This document shows, one piece after another, positions 6,310 through 33,300 of a DNA stretch of 34,450 nucleotides (its first letter is position 1; each line of letters opens with the position of its first letter). The stretch is from NCBI RefSeq assembly GCF_006519715.1, contig NZ_VIDT01000007.1:1-34450 (forward strand). The letters are read 5' to 3'. The stretch is from Ideonella azotifigens (GTDB taxonomy: Bacteria > Pseudomonadota > Gammaproteobacteria > Burkholderiales > Burkholderiaceae_C). Under the pieces are notes generated by a model. The model was not told the DNA's origin, searched no databases, and worked only from the letters and a program-made list of their open reading frames with translations. Made by a program: the position numbers and the translations under genes.

Positions 6310-6846
6310 ATGCAACTCCAGATCAACGGTAAGACGCATGAGGTCGATGCAGAGGCGGACACGCCTTTGCTGTGGGTGATCCGGGACGACCTCGGTCTGA
6401 CCGGCACGAAGTACGGCTGTGGGCTGGCGCAATGCGGCGCATGTTCGGTGCTGATCGACGGCGTGGTGACGCGCTCCTGCGTGATGCCGGCCTCGGCCGT
6501 CGTCGGCCGGCAGATCACCACCATCGAGGCCATCGAGCAGGATGCGGTGGGCCAGCGGGTGGTGCAGGCCTGGGTGGTGCATCAGGTGCCCCAGTGTGGC
6601 TACTGCCAGTCCGGCCAGGTCATGGCCACCACGTCTCTGTTGAAGCAAAACCCGCGTCCCACGGACGCGGAAATCGACACCGCCATGGTCAACCTCTGCC
6701 GATGTGGCACCTACAACGCCATTCGCGATGCGGTGCATGACCTGGCAGGGCGGGCGGGCGCCGCAGTGGCGGGAGAGTTGCTATCAGGCCATTCGGTGGC
6801 GCGTACGGCCGGGACCGGCGGCGCTGCGGACGAGGTGCAGTCATGA
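6310..6846 (+). CDS. (2Fe-2S) subunit of a molybdenum oxidoreductase (IorA type)
   Basis: 178 residues with a plant-type ferredoxin domain (C37, C42, C45, C57) followed by a helical domain with the second 2Fe-2S cluster (C96, C99, C130, C132). This is the small subunit of xanthine dehydrogenase-family enzymes. Here it would carry electrons from the Mo subunit to cytochrome c. It has no signal peptide, so it is probably exported bound to its Tat-bearing partner. The tail after residue 150 is alanine- and glycine-rich. It overlaps the next gene by four bases (ATGA). The family is named for isoquinoline 1-oxidoreductase, but homologues also oxidise aldehydes and nicotinate, so the substrate is open. 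Confidence 0.9.
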   Translation: MQLQINGKTHEVDAEADTPLLWVIRDDLGLTGTKYGCGLAQCGACSVLIDGVVTRSCVMPASAVVGRQITTIEAIEQDAVGQRVVQAWVVHQVPQCGYCQSGQVMATTSLLKQNPRPTDAEIDTAMVNLCRCGTYNAIRDAVHDLAGRAGAAVAGELLSGHSVARTAGTGGAADEVQS

Positions 6847-9104
6847 GCACGCCATTTTTTCCAAACGCCGCGGCGGAAGATGCCTTCCCGACCGGTGAGC
6901 CGACCAATGTCTCGCGTCGGGGTTTCCTGCTCCGCTCGGCGGGTACGGCGAGTGGTGCGTTCGTGCTGGGCTTCGGTTTGCCAATGGGCAGTGCACGTGC
7001 CCAGGCTGCGGCGACACCCGCGATGCGCGGCACGAAAGTGCCGGCGTTCCTGGAGATCCGGCCGGACAACTCGGTTCGCCTGCAAAGCCCGTTCATCGAA
7101 GGTGGGCAGGGCACCTTCACCGCCATGGCGCAGATCGTCGGCGAGGAACTGGACGCCGATCCCGCTAGCTTCATCGTGGAAAATGCACCACCCGGACAGG
7201 AGTTCGCTGTGCTGGACAACGGCATGCGCATCACCGGCGGCAGCATGTCGGTGCGCCTTGGCTATCCGACCATGCGGCGCCTGGGCGCGCTCGCGCGGGC
7301 CATGCTGCTGCAAGCAGCGTCGCAGCGCCTGCGCGTGCCGGTCGCACAGCTCAGCACCGAGCCGGGCCGGGTGGTGCACGCGGCTTCCGGCCGCTCGCTC
7401 GCCTACGGGCAGCTCGCCACGCAGGCCATGGACCTGCCGGTGCCCGACCCCGCCAGCGTGAAGCTCAAGGAGCGTTCGCAATTCCGCTGGATCGGCCAGC
7501 CCGTCAAGCGGCTGGACGCGCACGAGAAGTCCACCGGCAAGGTGCTCTACACCATCGACATGAAACTGGACGGCATGCTGCATGCCGCCGTTCAGCACGC
7601 GCCCCGGCTGGGCATGACGGTGGGTAGTGTGCGCAACCAGGCGCAGGTCGAGGCCATGAAGGGCGTGCACTCGGTGCACCGCCTGCCGGGCGCGATGGCG
7701 GTCGTCGCTGAACGCTGGTGGCACGCCAAGCGGGCAGCCGAGGCCCTGCAGGTGGACTGGCGCGAAGCCGGGCCCGAGGCCACCCAGCGCGTGATGCCGG
7801 CCGATTTCTCGACCGCGGCCTTCCAGCAGCGGCTCGCGGCCGCGACCGGTGCGGGCGACGAGGCCGAGGTGGCCGGCGACATCGCCTCCGGCTTCAAGGG
7901 CGCGAAGACCGTGGTGACTGCCACCTATGCCAGCCAGTACGTCAAGCACGCGCAGCTGGAACCACCCTCGGCGCTGGCGCGTTTCAACCCCGATGGCACA
8001 CTGGAGGTTTGGCTGCCCAACCAGGCCCCGGACATGTTCCGCGCCGACATGGCCAAGAAAACCGGACTGCCTGCCGACAAGATCACGCTGCATTCGCCGG
8101 TGCTGGGCGGCTTCTTCGGCCGCCATTTCCTCTACGAGGCAGCCAGCCCGTATCCGCAGGCCATCCAGCTGGCGAAGGCTACCGGGCGTCCGATCAAGCT
8201 GATTTGGAGCCGCGAGGAGGAGTTCCTGCGCGACACCGTGCGGCCCATGGCCGTTGTGCGCTTTCGCGCCGGGCTCGATCAGGACGGCCTGCCGGTCGCA
8301 CTGGAGGCCATCAGTGCCACCGAAGGTCCGACCGAAGGTCTCAGTGGCAAGCGCGCCGAGAAACCGGACCCAACCGCCGTGGAAGGCCTGGCAGGCAAGG
8401 CCTACGCCATCGCGAACCGGCGCGTGGCGCGGCTCTACGTGCAGACGCCCATGATGCTAGGCTACTGGCGCTCGGTCGGCAATTCGATGAACGACTTCTT
8501 CTACGAAGCCTTCCTCGATGAGCTGGCAGACAAGGGCGGGCATGACCCGTACGAGCTGCGGCTGCTCCTGCTGAAGGACAACGCACGGTTGACCCGCCTG
8601 CTGAAGGCGGCCGCCGAGCTGTCCGGCGGCTGGAAGCGCGGCCCCTTCACCGCGGCGGACGGTACGCGCCGGGCCCGTGGCGTGGCCATGGCCTCGCCCT
8701 TCGGCAGCCATGCTGCGGCCATTGCGGAAGTCTCGATCAAGCAGGGACGGGTGCGGGTGCACGACATCTGGGAAGCCATCGACCCCGGCAGCATCGTCAA
8801 CCCGGCCATCGTTGAAGCCCAGGTCAAGGGTGCCGTGGCGCTGGGGGTGTCGCAGGTGCTGTTGGAGGAGAGCGTCTACGAGCACGGTATGCCCCGGGCG
8901 AGGAACTACGACCTCTATCCCATCCTGCCGCCCGACCTCATGCCGCGGGTGCACGTCCGGGTTGTCGAGAGCGGCGAAAAGATGGGCGGAATCGGCGAGC
9001 CGCCGTTGCCCGCCGTGCCGCCGGCTGTGGCGAATGCCGTCGCCCGGCTGACGGGCAAACCTGTCCGCAGCATGCCGCTGTCGCGCCACACCTTCGAGGC
9101 CTGA
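6843..9104 (+). CDS. Tat-exported molybdopterin-binding subunit (IorB type)
   Basis: 753 residues. A twin-arginine signal (SRRGFLL, residues 24-30) precedes a hydrophobic stretch and an Ala-x-Ala-like region, so the enzyme acts in the periplasm. The molybdopterin domains follow: a GGFFGRHF loop in the middle and GIGEPPLPAVPPAVANAV near the C-terminus, where the glutamate is the expected catalytic base. It fits the IorB/AldH group, in which this subunit, the 2Fe-2S subunit and a multihaem cytochrome c form a membrane-linked oxidase. The start overlaps the 2Fe-2S gene and the cytochrome gene begins 12 bases after the stop. The substrate is probably an aldehyde or N-heterocycle and is not fixed by sequence. 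Confidence 0.88.
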   Translation: MSTPFFPNAAAEDAFPTGEPTNVSRRGFLLRSAGTASGAFVLGFGLPMGSARAQAAATPAMRGTKVPAFLEIRPDNSVRLQSPFIEGGQGTFTAMAQIVGEELDADPASFIVENAPPGQEFAVLDNGMRITGGSMSVRLGYPTMRRLGALARAMLLQAASQRLRVPVAQLSTEPGRVVHAASGRSLAYGQLATQAMDLPVPDPASVKLKERSQFRWIGQPVKRLDAHEKSTGKVLYTIDMKLDGMLHAAVQHAPRLGMTVGSVRNQAQVEAMKGVHSVHRLPGAMAVVAERWWHAKRAAEALQVDWREAGPEATQRVMPADFSTAAFQQRLAAATGAGDEAEVAGDIASGFKGAKTVVTATYASQYVKHAQLEPPSALARFNPDGTLEVWLPNQAPDMFRADMAKKTGLPADKITLHSPVLGGFFGRHFLYEAASPYPQAIQLAKATGRPIKLIWSREEEFLRDTVRPMAVVRFRAGLDQDGLPVALEAISATEGPTEGLSGKRAEKPDPTAVEGLAGKAYAIANRRVARLYVQTPMMLGYWRSVGNSMNDFFYEAFLDELADKGGHDPYELRLLLLKDNARLTRLLKAAAELSGGWKRGPFTAADGTRRARGVAMASPFGSHAAAIAEVSIKQGRVRVHDIWEAIDPGSIVNPAIVEAQVKGAVALGVSQVLLEESVYEHGMPRARNYDLYPILPPDLMPRVHVRVVESGEKMGGIGEPPLPAVPPAVANAVARLTGKPVRSMPLSRHTFEA

Positions 9105-9116
9105 GCCGTACGATCG

Positions 9117-10496
9117 ATGAGCAAGCTCCGTTTCAAGAAGATGCTGGTCCGGCTGCTGCTGGTCGCACTGGTGCTGGCCGCCGGCATGGCTTGGTTGGCC
9201 CGTCGCACGCCGCCTTCGCCTTTCGACGCCGAGGCCGCAGGGGATCCACGCACTGCGGCTCCTTCGGCAGAGCTGATCCGCCGCGGCGAATACCTGGCCC
9301 GCCTGAGCGATTGCGTGGCCTGCCACAGCACGCCGCAGAGCAAGCCCTTTGCCGGCGGACTGAAGATGGCCACACCCATGGGAGCCATCTTCGCAACCAA
9401 CATCACGCCGGACCAGGCTACCGGCATCGGTCGCTATTCGCTGGCCGACTTCGACCGCGCGGTGCGCCTGGGCGTGGCGGCCGATGGGCACCGGTTGTAT
9501 CCGGCCATGCCCTATCCGTCGTATGCCAAGCTGGGCGATGATGACTTGCGGGCCCTCTACGCCTTCTTCATGCACGGCGTGAGCCCCGTCCCGCAGCCGA
9601 ACCAGGCCAGCGAGATCCCATGGCCGCTGAACATGCGCTGGCCGTTGGCGCTATGGAACACAGTCTTCACCGAATCCGGCAGCTACCAGCCCAAGGCACC
9701 GGCCAAGGCCGGTGTGAACGCCGATCTCTGGAACCGCGGCGCCTACATCGTGCAAGGTCCGGGCCATTGCGGCAGCTGCCACACGCCGCGCGGCCTGGCG
9801 ATGAACGAGCAGGCGCTGAGCGAGAGCAGCCCGCTGTTCCTTTCGGGCGCGTTGCTGGACGGCTGGTATGCGCCCAGCTTGCGCGGCGACGGTGCCACCG
9901 GGCTCGGTCGCTGGCGTGAGGACGAGGTGGTGCAGTTCCTAAAGGTCGGCCGCAACGCGCATGCCGTGGTGTTCGGCTCCATGGCCGATGCCTTCAATAA
10001 CTCCACCCAGTTCATGACCGACGACGACCTGCGGGCCATCGCGTACTACCTGAAGTCCCTGCCGGGCGATGCCGGCACCACTGCCACGGCCCTCAGCGAG
10101 CGCCCGGCATCTTCCGACTCCGCGGCGAATGCCAGCGCTGTGAAGACCTTCGCCGCGAAATGTGCGGCCTGCCATGGTGCCAGCGGCGCTGGCCAGGCAC
10201 CATGGATCCCGCCGCTGGCCGGTGCCACCTCCTCCGTGGTGCCGCTGGCCAGAGCGTCCGCCATCAACGTGACGTTGAATGGTTCGGCTCGCGTCGTGGC
10301 CGCCGGCGTGCCGGACGCGTACCGCATGCCGGCTTTCCGCGACCAGCTCTCGGACCAAGAGATTGCCGACGTGCTGTCCTACGTGCGCGGCGCGTGGGGC
10401 AACCAGGGCGGGGCCGTGAAACAGGAAGACGTGAAGACCTTGCGCGAAGAGACCAACCCGGCCCGCAGCGACGTGATCGTGCTGCAGATGCGCTGA
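9117..10496 (+). CDS. Membrane-anchored three-haem cytochrome c
   Basis: 459 residues with an uncleaved-looking N-terminal membrane helix (residues 8-28) and three haem c sites: CVACH (66-70), CGSCH (218-222) and CAACH (349-353). This matches the cytochrome subunits of periplasmic alcohol, gluconate and aldehyde dehydrogenases. It is expected to take electrons from the 2Fe-2S subunit encoded two genes upstream and pass them to quinone or a terminal oxidase. Methionines near the end of each domain (for example YRMPAF) are candidate sixth ligands. It is the third gene of the 6310-10496 operon, with 12 bases after the Mo subunit. Confidence 0.9.
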   Translation: MSKLRFKKMLVRLLLVALVLAAGMAWLARRTPPSPFDAEAAGDPRTAAPSAELIRRGEYLARLSDCVACHSTPQSKPFAGGLKMATPMGAIFATNITPDQATGIGRYSLADFDRAVRLGVAADGHRLYPAMPYPSYAKLGDDDLRALYAFFMHGVSPVPQPNQASEIPWPLNMRWPLALWNTVFTESGSYQPKAPAKAGVNADLWNRGAYIVQGPGHCGSCHTPRGLAMNEQALSESSPLFLSGALLDGWYAPSLRGDGATGLGRWREDEVVQFLKVGRNAHAVVFGSMADAFNNSTQFMTDDDLRAIAYYLKSLPGDAGTTATALSERPASSDSAANASAVKTFAAKCAACHGASGAGQAPWIPPLAGATSSVVPLARASAINVTLNGSARVVAAGVPDAYRMPAFRDQLSDQEIADVLSYVRGAWGNQGGAVKQEDVKTLREETNPARSDVIVLQMR

Positions 10497-10593
10497 GCGA
10501 GCCGGCCATGCCTGTCCGGTTCGTCCCACCACGCCCTTCCACCCCGTCCCGCACCGCGATCCCGCTCGCAGCCAAGGCCTCACCCGGCGCGGC

Positions 10594-11026
10594 ATGGCGG
10601 TCGCGGCGCTGGGGTGGGTCCCCCTGGCCCTGGTCGCATCGGCCCGGGCCGCAGGACCCCATGAATCCACCATGAAGATCCGCATCCACCGCAGCGAGAT
10701 CCACCTCGACGTCCTCCTGGAGGCCAGCGACGTGGCCACCGAACTCTTGTCGCTGCTGCCATTGGACGCTGCAGCTGGAGGACTACCAGGCCACAGAGAA
10801 GGTCGCCTACCTGCCGGGCAAGCTGGCGGCGGCGGCCGGTAAGCCCGGCTTCACCCCTGCGCCTGGAGACCTGGCCTATTACGCGCCCTGGGGCAACCTG
10901 GCGTTCTTCTACCGGGGGGCGCCCCACGCCAGCGGGCTGGTGCGCCTGGGCCGGCTGCTGGGTGACGTGAAGGCCCTCCAGGTCCTGCCGTCCGGCACCG
11001 TGCGCGTCGAGCGCGTCGCCGATTAA
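10594..11026 (+). pseudogene. Cyclophilin-like fold protein, frameshifted
   Basis: From ATG 10594 the frame reads an export-signal-like segment, in-frame behind LTRRG which resembles a Tat motif, then MKIRIHRSEIHLDVLLEAS. At about 10765 the frame must change: one extra G lies between TTG and ACG. The new frame continues as LQLEDYQATEKVAYLP, GDLAYYAPWGNLAFFYRG and LVRLGRLLG to a TAA at 11024-11026. The joined protein resembles cyclophilin-like fold proteins (cyclophil_like2 group) such as the lipoprotein at 15257. The function of that group is unclear. A sequencing error of one base would give the same picture. The IS5 relic starts immediately after the stop. Confidence 0.75.
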
Positions 11027-11360
11027 GGCAACGCTGAATAAGGTCGAATCTGCCGCGGGGTTTGCATGTACCAAGTCAGCACAGACGGGCAGGTGAAGAT
11101 GAAGCAGCAGACCCTCGCGATGGCGGCCGATCAAGGCCAAGGATTCGAGCAATACCGCAAGCCGACGAGGCGCGACACCTTCCTGGCGACCATGGAAGAA
11201 ATCGTGCCCTGAATTGCGTTGTGCGAGGTGATCGAGCCTCACTATCCCAAGGCTGGCAACGGCCGCCCGCCGGTCGGGCTGGAGCGCATGCTGAGGATGT
11301 ACTTCGTGCAGCACTGGTTCAACCTGGCAGACGAAGCCTGCGAGGAGGCGCTGCTGTCAC
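11027..11360 (+). mobile_element. IS5-type element relic (transposase N-terminus)
   Basis: From ATG 11099 (or 11066 in frame) the sequence reads MKQQTLAMAADQ, FEQYRKPTRRDTFL, then a TGA at 11210-11212 where these transposases usually have tryptophan. It continues in the same frame as [33 protein letters not shown] and EACEEALL. This is the conserved N-terminal domain of IS5-family transposases. Homology ends near 11358, so the DDE domain and the right end are missing. The stretch GGCAACGCTGAATAAG at 11027-11042 is a likely terminal repeat and sits directly on the TAA of the preceding pseudogene. Confidence 0.8.
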
Positions 11361-18498: not shown

Positions 18499-18564
18499 AT
18501 GGCCCGTTCGGGCTCGACCTTCGTCAACGGCCAGGCCCTGGCCGTTGACGGCGGATTCACTGTG
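18499..18564 (+). pseudogene. 3'-end remnant of a short-chain dehydrogenase
   Basis: Twenty-two codons read SGSTFVNGQALAVDGGFTV, the standard C-terminal end of classical SDR enzymes (F-V-x-G-Q-x-L-x-V-D-G-G). No SDR sequence precedes it, since the hydrolase stop is 25 bases upstream. The frame then runs past 18564 without a proper stop. It is not the end of the intact SDR after it, which finishes differently (NEFTVGPSNQPW). It is therefore a scar of another SDR gene, left by deletion. Confidence 0.6.
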
Positions 18565-24779: not shown

Positions 24780-25758
24780 GTACGTACGGGCGGCCGATGC
24801 CGCATCGGCCGCAGCCGCAGTCGCGAGCGTGCCTGGCGCGAAGTTCCTCGCGGGCGGCTCCAATCTCGTCGACCTGATGAAGGAAGACGTGGAGCGGCCC
24901 ACCCGTGTGGTGGACATCCGCCAGTTGCCGCTGCGGCAGATCCAGCGTACCCGCGCGGGCCTGTCCTTGGGTGCGCTGGCGACCAACACCGAGACCGCCA
25001 ACCATCCGGTGATCCGCGAGAACTATCCGCTGCTGACCCAGGCCATCGTCGCGGGTGCCTCGGGGCAGTTGCGCAACATGGCCACCAACGGCGGCAACCT
25101 CCTGCAGCGTACTCGGTGCAACTACTTCTACGACACCGCAACGCCGTGCAACAAGCGCGAGCCCGGCACCGGCTGCGGTGCGCGCGAGGGACTGAACAAG
25201 ATCCACGCCGTCCTCGGCTGGAGCGAGGCCTGTGTGGCAACCTATCCGGGCGACATGGCCAACGCGCTGTATGCGCTTGACGCCAACGTGCGTGTGCATA
25301 CGACGGACGGGCGCGAGCGGCTGATCCCGATTGCCGATTTCCATCGCCTGCCGGGCGACACCCCGCAGCGGGACAACAACCTCGAACATGGCGAATTGAT
25401 CCTCGCCATCGAACTGCCGGTCTCGGCAGCAGAGTTCGCACGCAACTCCCACTACCTCAAAGTGCGCGATCGAACCTCCTACGCCTTTGCGATGGTCTCT
25501 GTCGCCGCCGCGCTGCAACTCGACGGCGGCACCATCCGCCAGGCGCGTGTGGTGCTGGGCAGCGTCGCCCACAAACCCTGGCGCAGCGCCGAGGCTGAGG
25601 CCGAGCTGGTCGGTCGCCGAGCCACCGAAGACACGTTCCGCCAGGCTGCCGCAGCCGCGCTGCGCGATGCCCGCCCGCTGGCCCACAACGCCTACAAGGT
25701 GGAACTGGGACAACGATCCGTTGTGCGTGCGCTGATGCGCGCCGCGAAACTGGCTTGA
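24766..25758 (+). CDS. paoB: Aldehyde oxidoreductase FAD-binding subunit PaoB
   Basis: 330 residues from ATG 24766 with AAGGAGGA at 24753-24760. The FAD motif FLAGGSNLVDLMK lies near residues 26-38. GASGQLRNMATNGGNLLQRTRC is followed by a cysteine-bearing loop (CNYFYD, TPCNKREPG, GCGA), which in PaoB holds an extra [4Fe-4S] cluster. The family member transfers electrons from the 2Fe-2S subunit to an acceptor. There is no signal peptide, as expected for co-export with PaoA. The stop is 17 bases before paoC. Confidence 0.88.
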   Translation: MRPFEYVRAADAASAAAAVASVPGAKFLAGGSNLVDLMKEDVERPTRVVDIRQLPLRQIQRTRAGLSLGALATNTETANHPVIRENYPLLTQAIVAGASGQLRNMATNGGNLLQRTRCNYFYDTATPCNKREPGTGCGAREGLNKIHAVLGWSEACVATYPGDMANALYALDANVRVHTTDGRERLIPIADFHRLPGDTPQRDNNLEHGELILAIELPVSAAEFARNSHYLKVRDRTSYAFAMVSVAAALQLDGGTIRQARVVLGSVAHKPWRSAEAEAELVGRRATEDTFRQAAAAALRDARPLAHNAYKVELGQRSVVRALMRAAKLA

Positions 25759-25775
25759 GCACAAGGAGAACTGCC

Positions 25776-27962
25776 ATGGCACGCTATCTTGGGAAAGAAA
25801 TGACCCGCGTGGACGGGATCGCCAAAGTCACGGGCAAGGCCAAATACACGGCCGAGTTCCAGGTCCCGCATGTGGCCTACGGCTTCATCGTGCTGAGCAC
25901 CGTGGCCAAAGGTCGGATCACCGCGATCGATGCCCGCGAGGCCGAGAACGCAGCGGGCGTGGTGCGCGTATTCACCCATCTGAACGCTGGCCGCCTGGGC
26001 AAGGCGCCAGCGGCCAGTGCGCCGCCGCAGTGGTCTTGGCCGCTGCAGTCGGATCGGGTGTTCTTCAACGGCCAGCCGATCGCATTGGTGGTCGCCGAAA
26101 CTTACGAGCAGGCGCGCCATGCCGCACGGCTGGTCAAGGCCACCTATCAAACCGAGCCGCACGTCACCGAGTTGCAGACAGTGCTGGGCCGCGCCATGCC
26201 GATACCGCAGAACACGCTGCCACGCGGCGACCCGGCCGGCGCGCTGAAGTCGGCAGAGGTCAAAGTAGAGGCCGAATATCACATCCCGATCAACCACCAC
26301 AATCCGATGGAGCCGCATGCGGCGATCGCGTTCTGGGAAGGTGAGAACCTCACGATTTTCGACAAGACACAGAACGTCTACGGCGTGCAGAAACACCTGG
26401 CCGAAGGCCTGGCCGTGCCGGCCGAGAACATCCGCGTGGTGTCGCCTTTCGTCGGTGGTGCCTTCGGCTCATCGCTCAAGCCCAACTACTACCCCTCGCT
26501 GACCGCCATGGCCGCGCGCGAACTCCGGCGTCCGGTCAAGGTGGTCTTCACCCGCACGCAGATGTTCACCGGCCACGGCTACCGGCCGCAGACGATCCAG
26601 AAGGTCGCGCTGGGCGCGGACCGCAGCGGCAAGTTGCAGGCCATCGTCCAGGAAGCGTTTCACAACACCTCGTCCTTCGAGGCGTTCTCGGACAACACCA
26701 CCGGCTTTCTCAAACAGGTCTATGCCTGCGCGAACCTGGACATGCCGCTGAAGGTGGCAGCCACCGACTTGCCCACGCCGACCTGGATGCGCGCGCCCGG
26801 GGCGGTCAGCGGCATGTTCGCGCTGGAAAGCGCGATGGATGAGCTGTCCTATGCGCTAAAGATCGATCCGCTGCAACTGCGCCTGATCAACTACGCCGAG
26901 GTCGATCCGGTCAGCGGCAAGCCGTTCTCGAGCAAGGCCCTGCGCGAGTGCTACCGCCTGGGCGCGGAGAAGTTCGGCTGGAAGAACCGCAACCCTGAGC
27001 CGCGCTCGATGCGCGACGGCAAGCTGTTGGTGGGCTGGGGCATGGCGTCGAGCGTGTGGGGCGCGATGCAGATGCCTGCGAGCGCCAAGGTCACCTACCG
27101 CGCCGACGGAACCGCCAGCGTTGCCAGCGCGACCAGCGACATCGGACCCGGCACCTACACCGTGATGACCATGATCGCGGCGGAGTTCCTGGGCCTTCGG
27201 ATGGATCAGGTGAAATTCGAGCTGGGTGATACACGCCAGCCTCAGGCCCCGGCGCAAGGCGGCTCGTGGACGACGTCCAGCGTCGGGTCTGCCGTGCGCG
27301 GCGCGGCGCTGACGATCACCGCCAAGCTGCTGGATTTGGCGAACCGCGAGGCCGCCTCGCCGCTGAGCGGCATCGCTGCCGAAAACGTCGAGATGCTCGA
27401 TGGCCGCCTGCGCTCCAAGAGCGATCCTTCGCGCGCGGTCGACATTGCCGAGGTCATGCGGCGCACCGGTACCAACGAGATCACCGAAGTCTTTAACTCG
27501 ACCCCATCACCCGAACGAGAAAAGTACGCCTCACTCGCCCACGGCGCCCAGTTCGTCGAGGTGAAGGTCGATCCCGACCTGGGCACGATGCGGGTGACCC
27601 GGGTGATCGAGATCACCGCCTGCGGAAAGATCCTCAACCCGCTGGCCTCGCACAGCCAGGAGATCGGCGGCGTGGTCTGGGGCATCGGGATGGCGCTGGA
27701 GGAAGCCACCGAAGTCGATCACCGCACGGGCCGCTTCATGACAGCCAACTTGCAGCATTACCACGTGCCGGTGAACGCCGACATCCACGCCATCGAGACC
27801 ATCTTTGTGGAAGAAGACGACACCATCGTCAATCCACTGGGGGTCAAAGGCATGGGAGAGTTGGGCATGGTCGGCATTCCGGCCGCCATCGCCAATGCTG
27901 TGTATCACGCCACCGGCAAGCGCATCCGCGATCTACCGATCACCCCAGAGAAACTCCTGTGA
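25776..27962 (+). CDS. paoC: Aldehyde oxidoreductase molybdenum-binding subunit PaoC
   Basis: 728 residues from ATG 25776 with AAGGAGA at 25763-25769. The opening RVDGIAKVTGKAKYTAEF is typical of the large subunits. The Mo-site loop VGGAFGSSLKP is near residue 230, PAQGGSWTTSSVGSAVRG contacts the cofactor, and the catalytic glutamate is in GVKGMGELGMVG (about E695). Together with paoAB it forms a periplasmic oxidase of aromatic and other aldehydes. PaoC normally needs the chaperone PaoD (XdhC family) for cofactor insertion; no intact one follows, and the XdhC-like gene at 29137 is truncated. Confidence 0.9.
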   Translation: MARYLGKEMTRVDGIAKVTGKAKYTAEFQVPHVAYGFIVLSTVAKGRITAIDAREAENAAGVVRVFTHLNAGRLGKAPAASAPPQWSWPLQSDRVFFNGQPIALVVAETYEQARHAARLVKATYQTEPHVTELQTVLGRAMPIPQNTLPRGDPAGALKSAEVKVEAEYHIPINHHNPMEPHAAIAFWEGENLTIFDKTQNVYGVQKHLAEGLAVPAENIRVVSPFVGGAFGSSLKPNYYPSLTAMAARELRRPVKVVFTRTQMFTGHGYRPQTIQKVALGADRSGKLQAIVQEAFHNTSSFEAFSDNTTGFLKQVYACANLDMPLKVAATDLPTPTWMRAPGAVSGMFALESAMDELSYALKIDPLQLRLINYAEVDPVSGKPFSSKALRECYRLGAEKFGWKNRNPEPRSMRDGKLLVGWGMASSVWGAMQMPASAKVTYRADGTASVASATSDIGPGTYTVMTMIAAEFLGLRMDQVKFELGDTRQPQAPAQGGSWTTSSVGSAVRGAALTITAKLLDLANREAASPLSGIAAENVEMLDGRLRSKSDPSRAVDIAEVMRRTGTNEITEVFNSTPSPEREKYASLAHGAQFVEVKVDPDLGTMRVTRVIEITACGKILNPLASHSQEIGGVVWGIGMALEEATEVDHRTGRFMTANLQHYHVPVNADIHAIETIFVEEDDTIVNPLGVKGMGELGMVGIPAAIANAVYHATGKRIRDLPITPEKLL

Positions 27963-27987: not shown

Positions 27988-28159
27988 TGGGTGGTGTGTT
28001 CTGGTCGCTGGATGTCGCCACCGGCAAGGGGCAATCGATTCCGGCGCGGGCTGCTCGCTTCGCTGTCCGCGCCAGTTGCGTTCTTCGTCCTCTGCGCGAC
28101 GCCCGCGTCCCTGACGCCTGATCAGTCGTGCACAGAAAATTAACTACCGGAGAATCAAG

Positions 28160-29035
28160 ATGAAAGTTGATGCCAGCCTTGCCGGTCAGTTCGCCATTGG
28201 CGGCGATCTGACGGTCAACCGCCTGGGCTTCGGCGCGATGCGCATCACCGGACCCAACGTGTGGGGCGAACCGGAGAACCGCGACGAGGCGATCCGCGTT
28301 CTGAAGCGCCTGCCGGAGATCGGTGTCGATCTGATCGACACGGCCGACAGCTACGGACCGTTCGTCAGCGAACAGCTCATCGCCGAGGCACTGCACCCTC
28401 ACGGTAGGATCAAGATCGCAACCAAGGGCAGTCTCGTGCGCTACCCCGGCAACGCCACCAGCCCATCTTGGCCGGTGATCGGCGACCCCGCCTATCTGCG
28501 CCAGTGCGTTTACATGAGCCTGCGACGGCTGAAGCTCGAACAGATCGACCTCTGGCAGCTCCACCGCATCGACCCGAAGGTGCCGCGTGCAGAGCAGTTC
28601 GGCGCCATCCGCGAATTCATCGACGAAGGCCTGATTCGGCATGCCGGCCTGAGCCAGGTGCCGGTCGAGGCCATCGAAGAGGCGTGCAAGTACTTCCCAG
28701 TGGCAACGGTGCAGAACCGCTACAACCTGGCCGACCGGGCGGATGAGGACGTGCTCGACTACTGCGAGGCGAACGGGATCGGTTTCATCCCTTGGTTCCC
28801 GCTGGCGGCGGGCGCTCTCGTCAAACCCGGCGGAGCGGTGGACGCGCTCGCCAAGGCGAAGGGCGCCACGGCCGGCCAGATCGCACTGGCCTGGCTGTTG
28901 AAGCGCAGCTCCGTGATCCTGCCCATTCCCGGCACGAGCACGATGGCTCACCTGGAGGAAAACGTGGCCGCCGCGGCGATCACACTCAGCGACGAGGAAT
29001 TTGCCGAACTTGATGCTGCTGCCCCGCGCGGTTGA
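28160..29035 (+). CDS. Aldo/keto reductase
   Basis: 291 residues forming the standard TIM-barrel reductase. The opening [13 protein letters not shown] is followed by the catalytic tetrad D60, Y65, K89 and H135 ([20 protein letters not shown]). The C-terminal NADPH segment reads [16 protein letters not shown]. Bacterial members of this YdhF/PLR-like group reduce aldehydes and ketones in the cytoplasm. The ATG at 28160 follows GGAGA. It is the last plus-strand gene of the redox run and faces the convergent XdhC remnant. Confidence 0.9.
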
Positions 29036-29136
29036 ACCCATGCACACGGCCTGCCGGCTGCGGCTGCCGCGGCCTGTGCAGGCGTGCGCCTTTCACCTTG
29101 AATAACCCGACCGAGCCCTCGGGCCTGGATCTGCCG

Positions 29137-29940
29137 TCAGATCAAATCTTCACGAACTCTCGCTTCCGACCCGACGTTGAAGTGCTCGCCAAGACGCTGC
29201 CTGCACGCCAGGCTGTTGCGCCGGCTTCCGATGGCACCGATGTACATCGCCTGGGTCGCAAGGGCATCGATCAGCGCGAGGTCGTCGAGCTTCGGGTCGT
29301 GGCTCAGCGCAATGACGGCGGTGCGCCGGTCCGGGCGGAAGGCGACGACGGCGTCGTCCGGCATGTCCGTCACGATCCGCGCGCCCGGCACGCTCCACGA
29401 ACCAAGGTCCTCGCGCCGGGGGTCGCAGACGGTGACTGCAAAACCGTTGAAGAGCGCCATCGTGGCCAGGTACTCCGCCAGCTGCCCCGCGCCGATGAGC
29501 AGCATGCGGTAACCGGGGCCGAAGGTCTGCGATGCGAAGTCCGCATTGAGCTGCAAGGCCTCCGGCGCGCTCCTGTCGGCCAGCGACGCCGAGCCGTCGA
29601 TCAAGCGAACCGTGCGGCGAACGAGTCGCCCCTCGGCGAGTGCGTCGACAAGCACTTGCAGCGGCTCGACAGCAGGGTCGAACTCCGCCAGCAGTTCGAG
29701 CGTGCCGCCACAAGGCAGGCCGAAGCGCCGCGCTTCGTCCGAGTTGACGCCGTAGCGCATGAAGGTGCGGGCGGCTTCATCCGGCTGGCGCCAGGCAGTG
29801 CGGCCAGTCACCAGCCGATGCAGGAGATCGTCCTCGATGCACCCACCGCTGACCGATCCGACCACCGCGCCGTCGGCAGCCAGCGCTGTTGGCGCCGACC
29901 GGAAACTGAGCCGCTCAGTTTCCGGTCGGCGCCAACAATG
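29137..29940 (-). pseudogene. XdhC/PaoD-like Mo-cofactor chaperone, truncated at both ends
   Basis: The minus frame (open 29137-30012) carries XdhC sequence from AADGAVVGSVSGGCIEDDLL through RFGLPCGGTLELLAEFDP to the Rossmann-like domain (RMLLIGAGQLAEYLA, VCDPRRED) and YIGAIGSRRNS, then stops soon after LGEHFNVG. Intact XdhC proteins have about 45-60 more residues before GSVSGGC, including a G-S-S-P-R-P segment, and about 40-50 after the end seen here. The first 35-40 codons of the frame are unrelated and pass through the 51-bp inverted repeat. XdhC-family proteins bind and insert sulfurated Mo cofactor, so this copy probably served paoABC and is no longer complete. Confidence 0.8.
29887..29937. 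repeat. Perfect 51-bp inverted repeat (24-base arms, 3-base loop)
   Basis: Arms at 29887-29910 and 29914-29937 are exact reverse complements around CCG. The match ends sharply on both sides. It spans the place where XdhC homology begins, on the 5' side of that broken gene. No T-tract follows in either direction, so it is not a normal terminator. Confidence 0.95.
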
Positions 29941-30117
29941 TGAATGGGCGGAGTGCAAGCACAGGGCGACGGGATGTCTGTTGGAACTGCGCGACGCAGC
30001 GCTCACTTCCATTTGAAAGTGGTTACCAGCTCTTTAGTCCGTCGCTACCACGCTACAAGTCAAACAATGCTGAAGCGGACTCAGCCTTGTAGGTAGATAT
30101 GTAGGTAGGAAATGAAA

Positions 30118-30136
30118 ACGGGGCGCAAGGCCCCGT
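30118..30136 (-). terminator. Rho-independent terminator of the tRNA-Ser gene
   Basis: On the minus strand, just after the tRNA, a stem of ACGGGGC and GCCCCGT encloses the loop CTTGC and is followed by TTTTC. It starts 15 bases past the CCA end, the right place and shape for an intrinsic terminator. Confidence 0.8.
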
Positions 30137-30150
30137 GTTTCATCGACTTT

Positions 30151-30238
<88 letters not shown>

Positions 30239-30247
30239 TGATAGGTG

Positions 30248-30316
30248 CACCCGTGGTCACCGGGTGAAGCCTTAGATTCTAGCTCAGGTTCTGAGCCTTC
30301 CGCGAAGCTCGCGGAA
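30248..30316 (-). terminator. Run of three small hairpins after the SNF2 gene
   Basis: Between the SNF2 stop and the tRNA are three perfect stem-loops: TTCCGCGA/TCGCGGAA (30298-30316), GCTCAG/CTGAGC (30282-30296) and CACCCG/CGGGTG (30248-30266). None is followed by a clear U-tract. They may slow or end transcription from the helicase gene before the tRNA promoter. This reading is from position only. Confidence 0.4.
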
Positions 30317-30322
30317 AGTATT

Positions 30323-33300
30323 TCATGCCCCCGGTTCTTCCTTGTCTTCGCGCATCAAGGCGATGAGTTCGTTTGCGCTGGGCAGTGCGGTGGTTTCCTG
30401 GCCTTCTAGCAGCAGGTCCGCGAGTTCGCGCTTGTCGCGGTGCAGCGTGAGGATCTTTTCCTCCAGCGTGCCTTCGGCCACCAGGCGGTAGACCGTCACC
30501 GGGCGCTGTTGGCCGATGCGGTGGGCGCGGCCGCTGGCCTGGTCTTCGGCGGCGGGGTTCCACCAGGGGTCGGCGATCACCACGTAGTCGGCCACCGTCA
30601 GGTTCAGGCCGAAGCCGCCGGCTTTCAGGCTGATGAGGAACAGCTCGCCCTGCCCGCCCTGGAAAGCGTCGACGCGCTTCATGCGTTCGGCCGCGGGCGT
30701 GCTGCCGTCCAGGTACTGGTAGGCGATGCCGGCTTCGTCCAGTGGCGCTTTCAGCAGCGTCAGGAAGTCGACGAACTGGCTGAAGACCAGCGCCTTGTGA
30801 CCGTTGGCGACCAGTTCGGCGGCCAGCTCGCCAAAGGCCTTGACCTTCGCACCGACCAGGCTCAGGTGCGGGCTTGCCAGGCGCGGGTCGCAGGCGGCCC
30901 GGCGCAGCTTCGTCAGCCCGGCCAGGATGTTGAACTGGGCCTGGCCGATGGCGTCGCCCGAGAGGCTGCGCTCTGCCGCGACCAATGCGTCTCGCCGCAA
31001 GGCTTCGTAGTGCGCCTGCTCGGCCGCTTCCAGCGGTATTTTCAGGACCAGCTCGGTGCGCGGCGGCAAATCGTCCAGCACCTGGGCCTTGGTGCGGCGC
31101 AGGATGAAGGGCGCGATCAGGCGGCGCAGCTGGCGTTGGGCGGTCTTGTCGCGCTGGCGCTCGATGGGTCCGGCAAAACGCTCGTTGAAGCGTGCCATCG
31201 TGCCGAGCAGACCGGGATTGCAGGCGCGCATCACGGACCACAATTCGCCCAACCTGTTCTCGATTGGGGTACCTGAAAGTGCCAGGCGGAACCGGGCCTG
31301 CAGCGCAAACACGGCCTGGCTGCGCTTGGCCGCGGCGTTCTTGATCGCCTGGGCCTCGTCCATCACCAGCGTGGCCCATTCTCGGGCGGCAAAGCGCTCG
31401 GCGTCCTGCTGCAGCAGCGCATACGAGACCAGCAGCACGCTGCCGGGGGTGTCGGTCGCAATCTGGGCCGTGCGGTCTGCCCCGGCTTCGCCAAACACCT
31501 GCACGCTGAGCGAGGGCGCGAAGCGGCGCGCCTCGGCGCGCCAGTTGCCAACCAGCGAGGTGGGCGCGACAACCAGCGCCGGCCCTTTGGATGCGCGCGA
31601 CAGCAGCACCGCCAGCGCCTGCAGCGTCTTGCCAAGGCCCATGTCGTCTGCCAGGCAGGCCCCAAGCCCGGCCGAGGCCAGGCGCATGGCCCACTCGAAA
31701 CCTTCTTCCTGGTACGGCCGCAGGCTGGCCTGCAGCGTGGCCGGCAGCGCGGGCACAACCCGCCGGGCTTCGTCCAGCTCGGCCAGGCGGCGGGCGAACG
31801 CATCGTCCACCGTCAGCTGGCTGCCTTCGGCCAGTTCCTGCAGCCAGGGTGCCGCCACCTTGGGCAGGCGCAGCGACGTCAGGTCGTCCTTGCCGGACTT
31901 GGCTTCCGCCACTGCGGCCAGGTCGGCCAGGCGCTCGCGCAGCTCCTGTGTGAGCGCCAGGTAGCGGCCATCGCCCAGCGGCACGAAGCGACTCTTGGCG
32001 CCGCTGTGCAGGCCCATCAACTGCTGCAGGCTCAGCACCAGCGCTTCGTCGACTGCCAGGTCGCCGTCCAGCGCCAACCATTCCTGGCGGGTGTGCACCC
32101 GCAGCGCCAATTGGGCCAGGCCTGCGGTGTCCACGCGCAAGGCCTTGCCCTGCGGCCAGTCCAGTGCCTGCAAGGCATTCAGCGGACGCAACCTTTCGAC
32201 CAAGGTCAGTGCCTGTTCGGCATCGTCCAGCAGCCATTCGCAGGGTGCGCCGGCAGGCAGCGGCGGCAGCATCGGGCAGGCGTCCAGCACCGTGTCCAGG
32301 TGCTCGCGCTCCGCGGCGAGGTCGCGCTGCACGCCAATGGTTTCGCCCTTGACCGCGGCCACCACGCGCGCACGACCACCGCCCGGCACCAGGCGCGGGC
32401 CATCGTCGGCATGGTCAGGGCCAAAGGGCGCGGCGACCAGGCGGAGTTGCAGGCCATCGCCCACGGGAGACAGCTCGGCGCGCAGCCGTGAATCCGCGGT
32501 CAGCTCACGTGCGGCCTGCGCGCTCTGCGCTTCGTCGCTGTGGATGCGGAAATGCGTGCCCAGGCCGGTCAGCACCTCCTGCAGCTGGGCCACACCCTGC
32601 TGCGGAATGTCCAGGCCCTCGGGGCCGAGCAACTGGGCCACGCGTTTTTGCGCCGGCGTCAGGCGGATCAGCCGCGCGCGTTGCGGGCTGTCTCGCACCA
32701 CGGTGATCAGGCGCAGCTGGTCCAGCTCCTTCTGCTCGGCGGCGCTGCCGGACCAGCGCGGCGTGGCGTCGTCGCCCACCACCTGCAGCGTGGGCCACAG
32801 GCGCACGCGCAGGCGCTCGCCTTCACGGGTCACGTCCAGCTCGGGGCCGGCTTCGGTCAGCTCGACCTTGGTCTCCAGCGCATCGTCGAACACCAGGCCG
32901 GGGTGGCCAACCAATGCGGCAGCAGCGGCAGCGAGGTCGAAACGCACCTGGCGGCTGTAGGCCTCCTGTTTCAGCGTGCGGGCCACGCGGGCATCGTGCG
33001 GCGGCAGCGACTCCGCGGTGCGCTGCAGCCGTGTCAACGGCACGTCCTTGGGCTTGCCCCAGCCGCGCACGCCGCGCTTCTGCTCCATGGCCTGCAGGTC
33101 CAGCACCTGGCCCTGGCGGCCCAGCTCCAGCACCCACAGCAGCTGGGTTTCATCCGAGGACGTGGCGCCCGCGGCTGGCTCGGGCGCAACCACCGCGCGC
33201 AGTGCGTCCAGCGCCACTTCCCAGCGCTCACGAGCACCGCGGATGAAGAACACCGTCTGCACGCGTTCGCCGGACAACACCTGCAGCGCAGCGCGCAACT

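Follow-up and report, generated by a model that had tools for sequence, protein, structure and literature searches.

Nearly precise excision of Tn10, which Foster and colleagues are said to have reported in 1981, leaves a remnant of about 50 bp. The process involves internally located inverted repeats and a copy-choice mechanism and is stimulated by rolling-circle replication, as set out in passages of two publications (PMC5991714, PMC12524634). Imprecise excision accompanied by deletions is possible for Tn5, Tn7, Tn10 and Mu (excerpt of PMC4766695), and copies of insertion sequences (IS) are found at deletions that lack target duplications (excerpt of PMC11708052). In the IS21 family, each end carries two repeats, and a partial right end that consists of R1 alone has a similar affinity for IstA but a low cooperativity (section of PMC10122671).

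Here, we describe a perfect palindrome in DNA of Ideonella azotifigens. It is part of a stretch of 34,450 nucleotides that was analyzed as a whole and is termed the window in the following. Judged by its architecture, the best and closest analogue of the palindrome appears to be nearly precise excision of Tn10. In both cases, the interior between inverted repeats would have been lost and the outer ends left behind as a short palindrome, and in the window two outer ends do indeed abut by their inner sides over a total of 51 bp. Unlike in Tn10, however, the ends belong to the IS21 family, a direct repeat is not readily apparent at the junction, and a target duplication retained on both sides is missing from the window, while two of the eight loci of this build have one. 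Because the target duplication is missing, we class the window as an excision-like scar plus a rearrangement rather than as a plain scar.

Other described systems share some of these traits. With the IS21 family, the palindrome has both termini, the TG...CA tips and the outer terminal-repeat sequence in common, but istA, istB, the inner terminal repeats and a target duplication are absent from the window. Bacterial MITEs resemble it as short inverted-repeat units that stem from an IS through internal deletion, whereas the unit in the window is single-copy, does not belong to an amplified lineage and is far shorter than the examples of 100 and 228 nt given in an excerpt of PMC3189936. IS-associated deletions are similar in that IS ends join unrelated flanks without a target duplication, but in the cases covered by the same excerpt of PMC11708052 a full IS stays at the joint, while two ends alone are present in the window. 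Among the open-access literature matches listed, we recognized no description, in the sections concerned, of IS21 scars that run from one terminal inverted repeat directly into the other.

The palindrome and its genomic site

The site is composed of the following features:

29137–29886, minus strand: xdhC lacking about its first 42 codons; Pfam XdhC_C, partial XdhC_CoxI just below the cut-off; compared with 14 loci from relatives
29887–29937: perfect palindrome of 51 bp, arms of 25 nt plus 1 centre base
29887–29911, plus strand: left arm, 25-nt IS21-family terminal inverted repeat with its tip at 29887; 26 nt when base 29912 is included
29912: centre, one base; istA, istB and the inner terminal repeats are all missing
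29913–29937, minus strand: right arm, inverted copy of the IS21 end in the left arm, tip at 29937
29938–30150: right flank, from the palindrome to tRNA-Ser, with two TGTAGGTAG repeats at 30088–30108
30151–30238, minus strand: tRNA-Ser(CGA), adjoining an SNF2-type gene; integration site in one relative

The original prediction described two 24-base arms around a 3-base loop, which is correct for the hairpin form, while plain symmetry gives arms of 25 nt on either side of a single base. With gaps of up to 10 bases allowed, the runner-up among the perfect palindromes of the window has arms of 14 nt, and the longest arms in eight order-1 Markov controls of the same length measured 9–12 nt each. 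The length of the palindrome far exceeds what is expected by chance. The second-longest perfect palindrome lies at 18522–18550 and has a 1-base centre. When folded as single-stranded DNA, the 51-bp palindrome reached −33.3 kcal/mol (z −10.6), a value that none of 200 shuffles equalled; the shuffled sequences averaged −10.4 kcal/mol. Rfam reported the tRNA as its sole match in the region 28000–32000 and none for the palindrome, and a reading as functional RNA was dropped for this reason. When further copies were sought in the genome, as had been suggested, the exact palindrome proved to be single-copy, which rules out a dispersed exact repeat; the one additional match within the E-value limit of 0.001 covers 28 bases of contig C1. 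A search of 15 further genomes from the genus gave no match to the palindrome.

The homology to XdhC ends exactly at the outward-facing tip of the left arm. In 13 of 14 compared loci from other genomes (L058–L069, L072) it extends further upstream, through an N-terminal stretch that has been lost in the window and comprises 42 residues in L060. The original prediction that the palindrome lies at the broken 5′ end of an XdhC-like gene was thereby borne out. The fourteenth compared locus, L070, matches the C-terminal part alone, and two of 16 genomes gave no match in the XdhC comparison. Within the own genome, the only clear match to the missing stretch is a paralogue on contig C158; another one, at E 1.7, is noise. 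The open frame of xdhC extends beyond the palindrome and reaches an ATG at 30012; this extension is without similarity to XdhC. A target duplication of 4–12 bp around the palindrome was not detected in the window, and we found no related strain in which the site is empty or occupied. The window also contains two genes for proteins with xanthine dehydrogenase-type molybdopterin cofactor-binding domains (6741–9101 and 25755–27962), the latter of which is close to the truncated xdhC.

On the opposite side, 213 bases separate the right arm from tRNA-Ser(CGA), in agreement with the originally given distance of 214 bases to the 3′ end of the tRNA. As judged by match placement, 9 of 15 further genomes from the genus have tRNA-Ser and the SNF2-type gene side by side. 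Except for the last few bases at the tRNA, the sequence between palindrome and tRNA does not occur at this tRNA in any match from these 15 genomes, and the right flank has no match among plasmids. Close to the tRNA-Ser, TGTAGGTAG is present twice in direct orientation, the copies lying 12 bases apart. In one relative (G003), an integrase gene (Arm-DNA-bind_3) follows the equivalent tRNA-Ser. On the basis of this neighbourhood, the right flank may represent the border of an integrated element, and the two TGTAGGTAG copies possibly served as arm-type sites of a lost integrase.

Comparison of the arms with IS21 ends

The arm sequence, TGTTGGCGCCGACCGGAAACTGAGC, has an exact match in the Variovorax plasmid CP063168, where it is present as a single end. 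A comparison with the istA/istB element of the Cupriavidus plasmid NZ_CP038640 yielded one mismatch in 25 positions for the left end and five for the right end. This element is 2,635 bp long, its opposite end is a repeat of the same kind, and the two proteins that it encloses score as Mu-transposase C-terminal domain and IstB_IS21. The palindrome exhibits both features of IS21-family terminal repeats, i.e., the match to the outer repeat and TG...CA tips (TGTTGG...CCAACA) that point outward on both arms. It differs from an intact IS21 in having one base in place of istA/istB and the outer repeat alone at each end. As the arms match ends that bracket istA and istB, the palindrome is, by sequence comparison, best described as two IS21 ends with their inner sides touching and their tips pointing outward.

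Left and right ends differ at 4–5 of 25 positions in three full IS21 elements, and the arms of six imperfect scars differ at 4–7 of 25 positions. The window and one further locus, L041, have identical arms, in each case closest to one end type (one mismatch versus five). Given the perfect arms on the one hand and the 4–5 differences in full IS21 elements on the other, simple loss from one ordinary IS21 would not account for the window. In the own genome, a search for IstB gave one strong match on contig C843. There, a full-length IS21-type copy (L012, L007; about 8505–11148) is flanked on both sides by the 9-bp duplication GTGTTCGTA, and its diverged left end shows 4 differences in 25 positions to the window arm. 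An intact parent with exactly the end present in the window was not found in the own genome.

IS21 ends that are cut at 25–30 nt and occur singly were encountered in the own genome (C1:53024), in genome G308 (C4:635519), in CP063168 and in the Comamonas plasmid pBHB, in searches that would leave ends of less than 25 nt undetected. The first one (C1:53024–53048; L003 1501–1525) is a one-ended 25-nt remnant with one mismatch to the window arm that is fused to what we take to be the C-terminal part of a LysR-type gene. The remnant in G308 (L081, L080) is 29 nt long, equals the left 29 nt of the two-ended scar found in the same genome and is presumably followed by sequence resembling the end of an IS3-type element; being one-ended, it was rejected as the full parent of that scar. 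These cases demonstrate that two-ended scars are not the only form of IS21 debris with a cut close to the inner repeat edge.

Loci of the same build in other genomes and plasmids

The architecture of the window was found at seven further loci of 52–57 bp with inner gaps of 2–7 nt, amounting to eight loci altogether. With arms of 25 nt, the gap measures 1 nt in the window, 2 in pMSMB2035, 4 in pPNAP01, pPNAP02 and pDTG1, 5 in G308 and 7 in L041 and G218. Four of the seven further loci are located in complete plasmid records (pPNAP01 and pPNAP02, both from one strain, pMSMB2035 and pDTG1), and the pDTG1 locus is present in two more records. A scan of 84,980 GTDB species genomes, from which the nearest records to the window genome are perhaps omitted, for inward-facing ends 0–30 bases apart yielded one locus, L041 from a Comamonadaceae MAG. 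The plasmid loci were retrieved by BLAST with the L041 palindrome and then with newly found ones as queries: one place covering at least 80% of the query was present in 0 of 97 and 4 of 165 records, and for further queries in 3 of 30 and 3 of 757 records, the query being counted. In 399 genomes of the family, a narrow pattern matched the own genome alone, and a broader pattern matched three times (own genome, G218 and G308) as opposed to no match for a reversed control pattern. The broad pattern did not match any viral contig. Several plasmid matches to the first query, among them those in Variovorax (H1), Leisingera (H31) and Burkholderia glumae (H33), were set aside because they are single ends or due to chance rather than scars.

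Target duplications exist at two of the eight loci (8 bp in pPNAP01; 9 bp, perfect, in G308), and none of at least 4 bp was detected at the other six. The scar in G308 is identical, letter for letter, to the first 29 plus the last 27 bases of the 2,635-bp element from NZ_CP038640, with one base shared between the two ends of the element at the junction. It resides on a contig of 2,251,152 bases, within an open frame that presumably encodes an IS66-type transposase. In pDTG1, similarity of the left flank to the integrase block of pCAR1 and NAH7 breaks off 19 bases short of the scar; on the right side, similarity to the pPVG21 traN region sets in with the first base past the tip. These flank matches show that scars of the kind seen in the window can occupy joints between unrelated segments. 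An intact IS21 at the pDTG1 site was absent among the plasmids compared. A same-site search for pPNAP01 returned itself alone, and the best other record for pMSMB2035 covers 28% of the query. In the L041 genome, both matches obtained in a search for IstB were weak (31.8 and 20.3 bits, cut-off 24.1) and lay in open frames of 518 and 348 aa, such that there seems to be no clear parent IS21. ARAGORN detected no tRNA in 8,000 bases of L041, and the idea that scars adjoin tRNAs as a rule was dropped on this account. As the junctions differ, the eight loci look like separate events rather than copies of one mobile miniature element.

Origin of the palindrome and alternative explanations

We consider it likely that the palindrome was left behind by excision of IS21-family DNA at a rearrangement joint, with the interior of the element lost. 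If so, it is an unusually clean case of an already known type of event. This explanation is favoured by the arms matching IS21, the position of the left tip at the XdhC boundary and the same build at seven further loci, four of them in complete plasmid records and two with target duplications; the lack of a target duplication, the unusual perfection of the arms, the lack of an intact parent in the own genome and the state of the genome, which consists of 1,219 contigs, count against it. The course of events may have been as follows. First, xdhC would have received an IS21-type element near codon 43. Through an IS-linked deletion or rearrangement, the beginning of the gene would then have been lost and the second IS end placed next to DNA from the tRNA-Ser side, which would account for the unrelated flanks as well as for the absent target duplication. 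Finally, the interior between the terminal repeats would have been deleted such that 26 plus 25 bases remained, a step for which the other loci offer parallels. In its likely route, the repeats would pair in single-stranded DNA and form a stem of about 25 bp, leaving the remainder of the element as the loop. Replication or hairpin processing would then skip the loop with little or no need for sequence homology, as has likewise been suggested for the nearly precise excision of Tn10. Identical arms may have arisen because the parent element had identical ends, because older, imperfect ends were corrected with the hairpin as template, or because a single end type was contributed by two oppositely oriented copies.

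A more general version of this explanation would be that the IS21 family undergoes recurrent structure-guided loss, in which pairing of the repeats determines where the element is cut. The loop would be excised at the foot of the stem and a palindrome of 51–57 bp would remain, in some cases coupled to a rearrangement that brings together unrelated flanks and in some cases followed by correction to perfect arms. We regard this extension as tentative and rather doubtful. At the three loci besides the window that stem from gap-tolerant scans, the inner gap measures 5, 7 and 7 nt, with 0–30 having been permitted. If gaps were uniform over this range, the chance of all three being 7 or less would be 0.017, or 0.0044 including the window, a figure that is biased as the window was the seed. 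The four plasmid loci are omitted from this calculation because they were found by BLAST, which favours short gaps. The argument from short gaps is thus a weak one.

An assembly artefact, in which contig ends made up of IS21 ends were misjoined and neither the palindrome nor the adjacency of xdhC and tRNA-Ser is real, appears unlikely. It would fit with the draft status of the 1,219-contig genome, the main source of uncertainty here, with unrelated flanks devoid of a target duplication and with the fact that L041, the other case with perfect arms, is titled a MAG. However, scars of equal build are present in complete plasmid records and, together with a target duplication, on the 2.25-Mb contig of G308, and a join with a one-base gap requires reads that contain the centre. 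Furthermore, the end present in the window occurs elsewhere among the contigs of the own genome, at up to one mismatch, solely as the C1 remnant; since no further contig carries it, a collapsed multi-copy IS at contig ends is disfavoured.

Considerably less probable is a MITE, i.e., a 51-bp unit of two terminal inverted repeats that was moved in trans by an IS21 transposase. The intact tips and the target duplications at two loci elsewhere would suit such a unit, and MITEs are thought to derive from ISs through internal deletion (excerpt of PMC3189936). Nevertheless, MITEs are multi-copy while the own genome holds one copy, the window has no target duplication, and arms and junction vary at every locus, which speaks against an amplified lineage. 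In addition, IS21 ends carry two repeats each and R1 alone binds IstA with about equal affinity but without cooperativity (section of PMC10122671); mobility of a 51-bp unit is therefore disfavoured, albeit conceivable.

Fold-back or template switching at a deletion junction had been put forward in the original prediction, in which the arms were not identified as insertion-sequence ends; in terms of IS21, one end would have been copied back into a second arm. The part concerning a deletion or rearrangement joint at the 5′ end of xdhC stands, while fold-back as the source of the second arm is very unlikely. Identical arms that are nearest to one end type and the one-ended remnant at C1:53024 would be in line with it, but the second arm stops exactly at the IS tip, both in the window and in L041, and the bases beyond the tips are not complementary. 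Neither a symmetry boundary independent of the IS tip nor complementary flanks are seen at the palindrome, and with both arms ending at TG/CA tips fold-back is unlikely as the sole origin. A functional palindrome kept by selection, be it a regulator site, a terminator or a recombination site, is hardly credible despite the perfect arms and the strong hairpin, given the lack of matches in Rfam and in the 15 further genomes from the genus and given that an IS21 end already accounts for the arm sequence; the suggested recombination or protein-binding site holds insofar as IS21 ends are such sites by origin.

Interpreted as the remains of an excised IS21 at a rearrangement joint, the striking perfect palindrome would be explained without a new mechanism. 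IS21 ends joined by their inner sides would be a recognizable signature of a former, now lost IS21, and such scars would flag old insertions and rearrangement joints that are invisible to searches for transposase genes. Should a full survey confirm that the inner gap is short, the stem-loop model of transposon excision would become testable from genome data.
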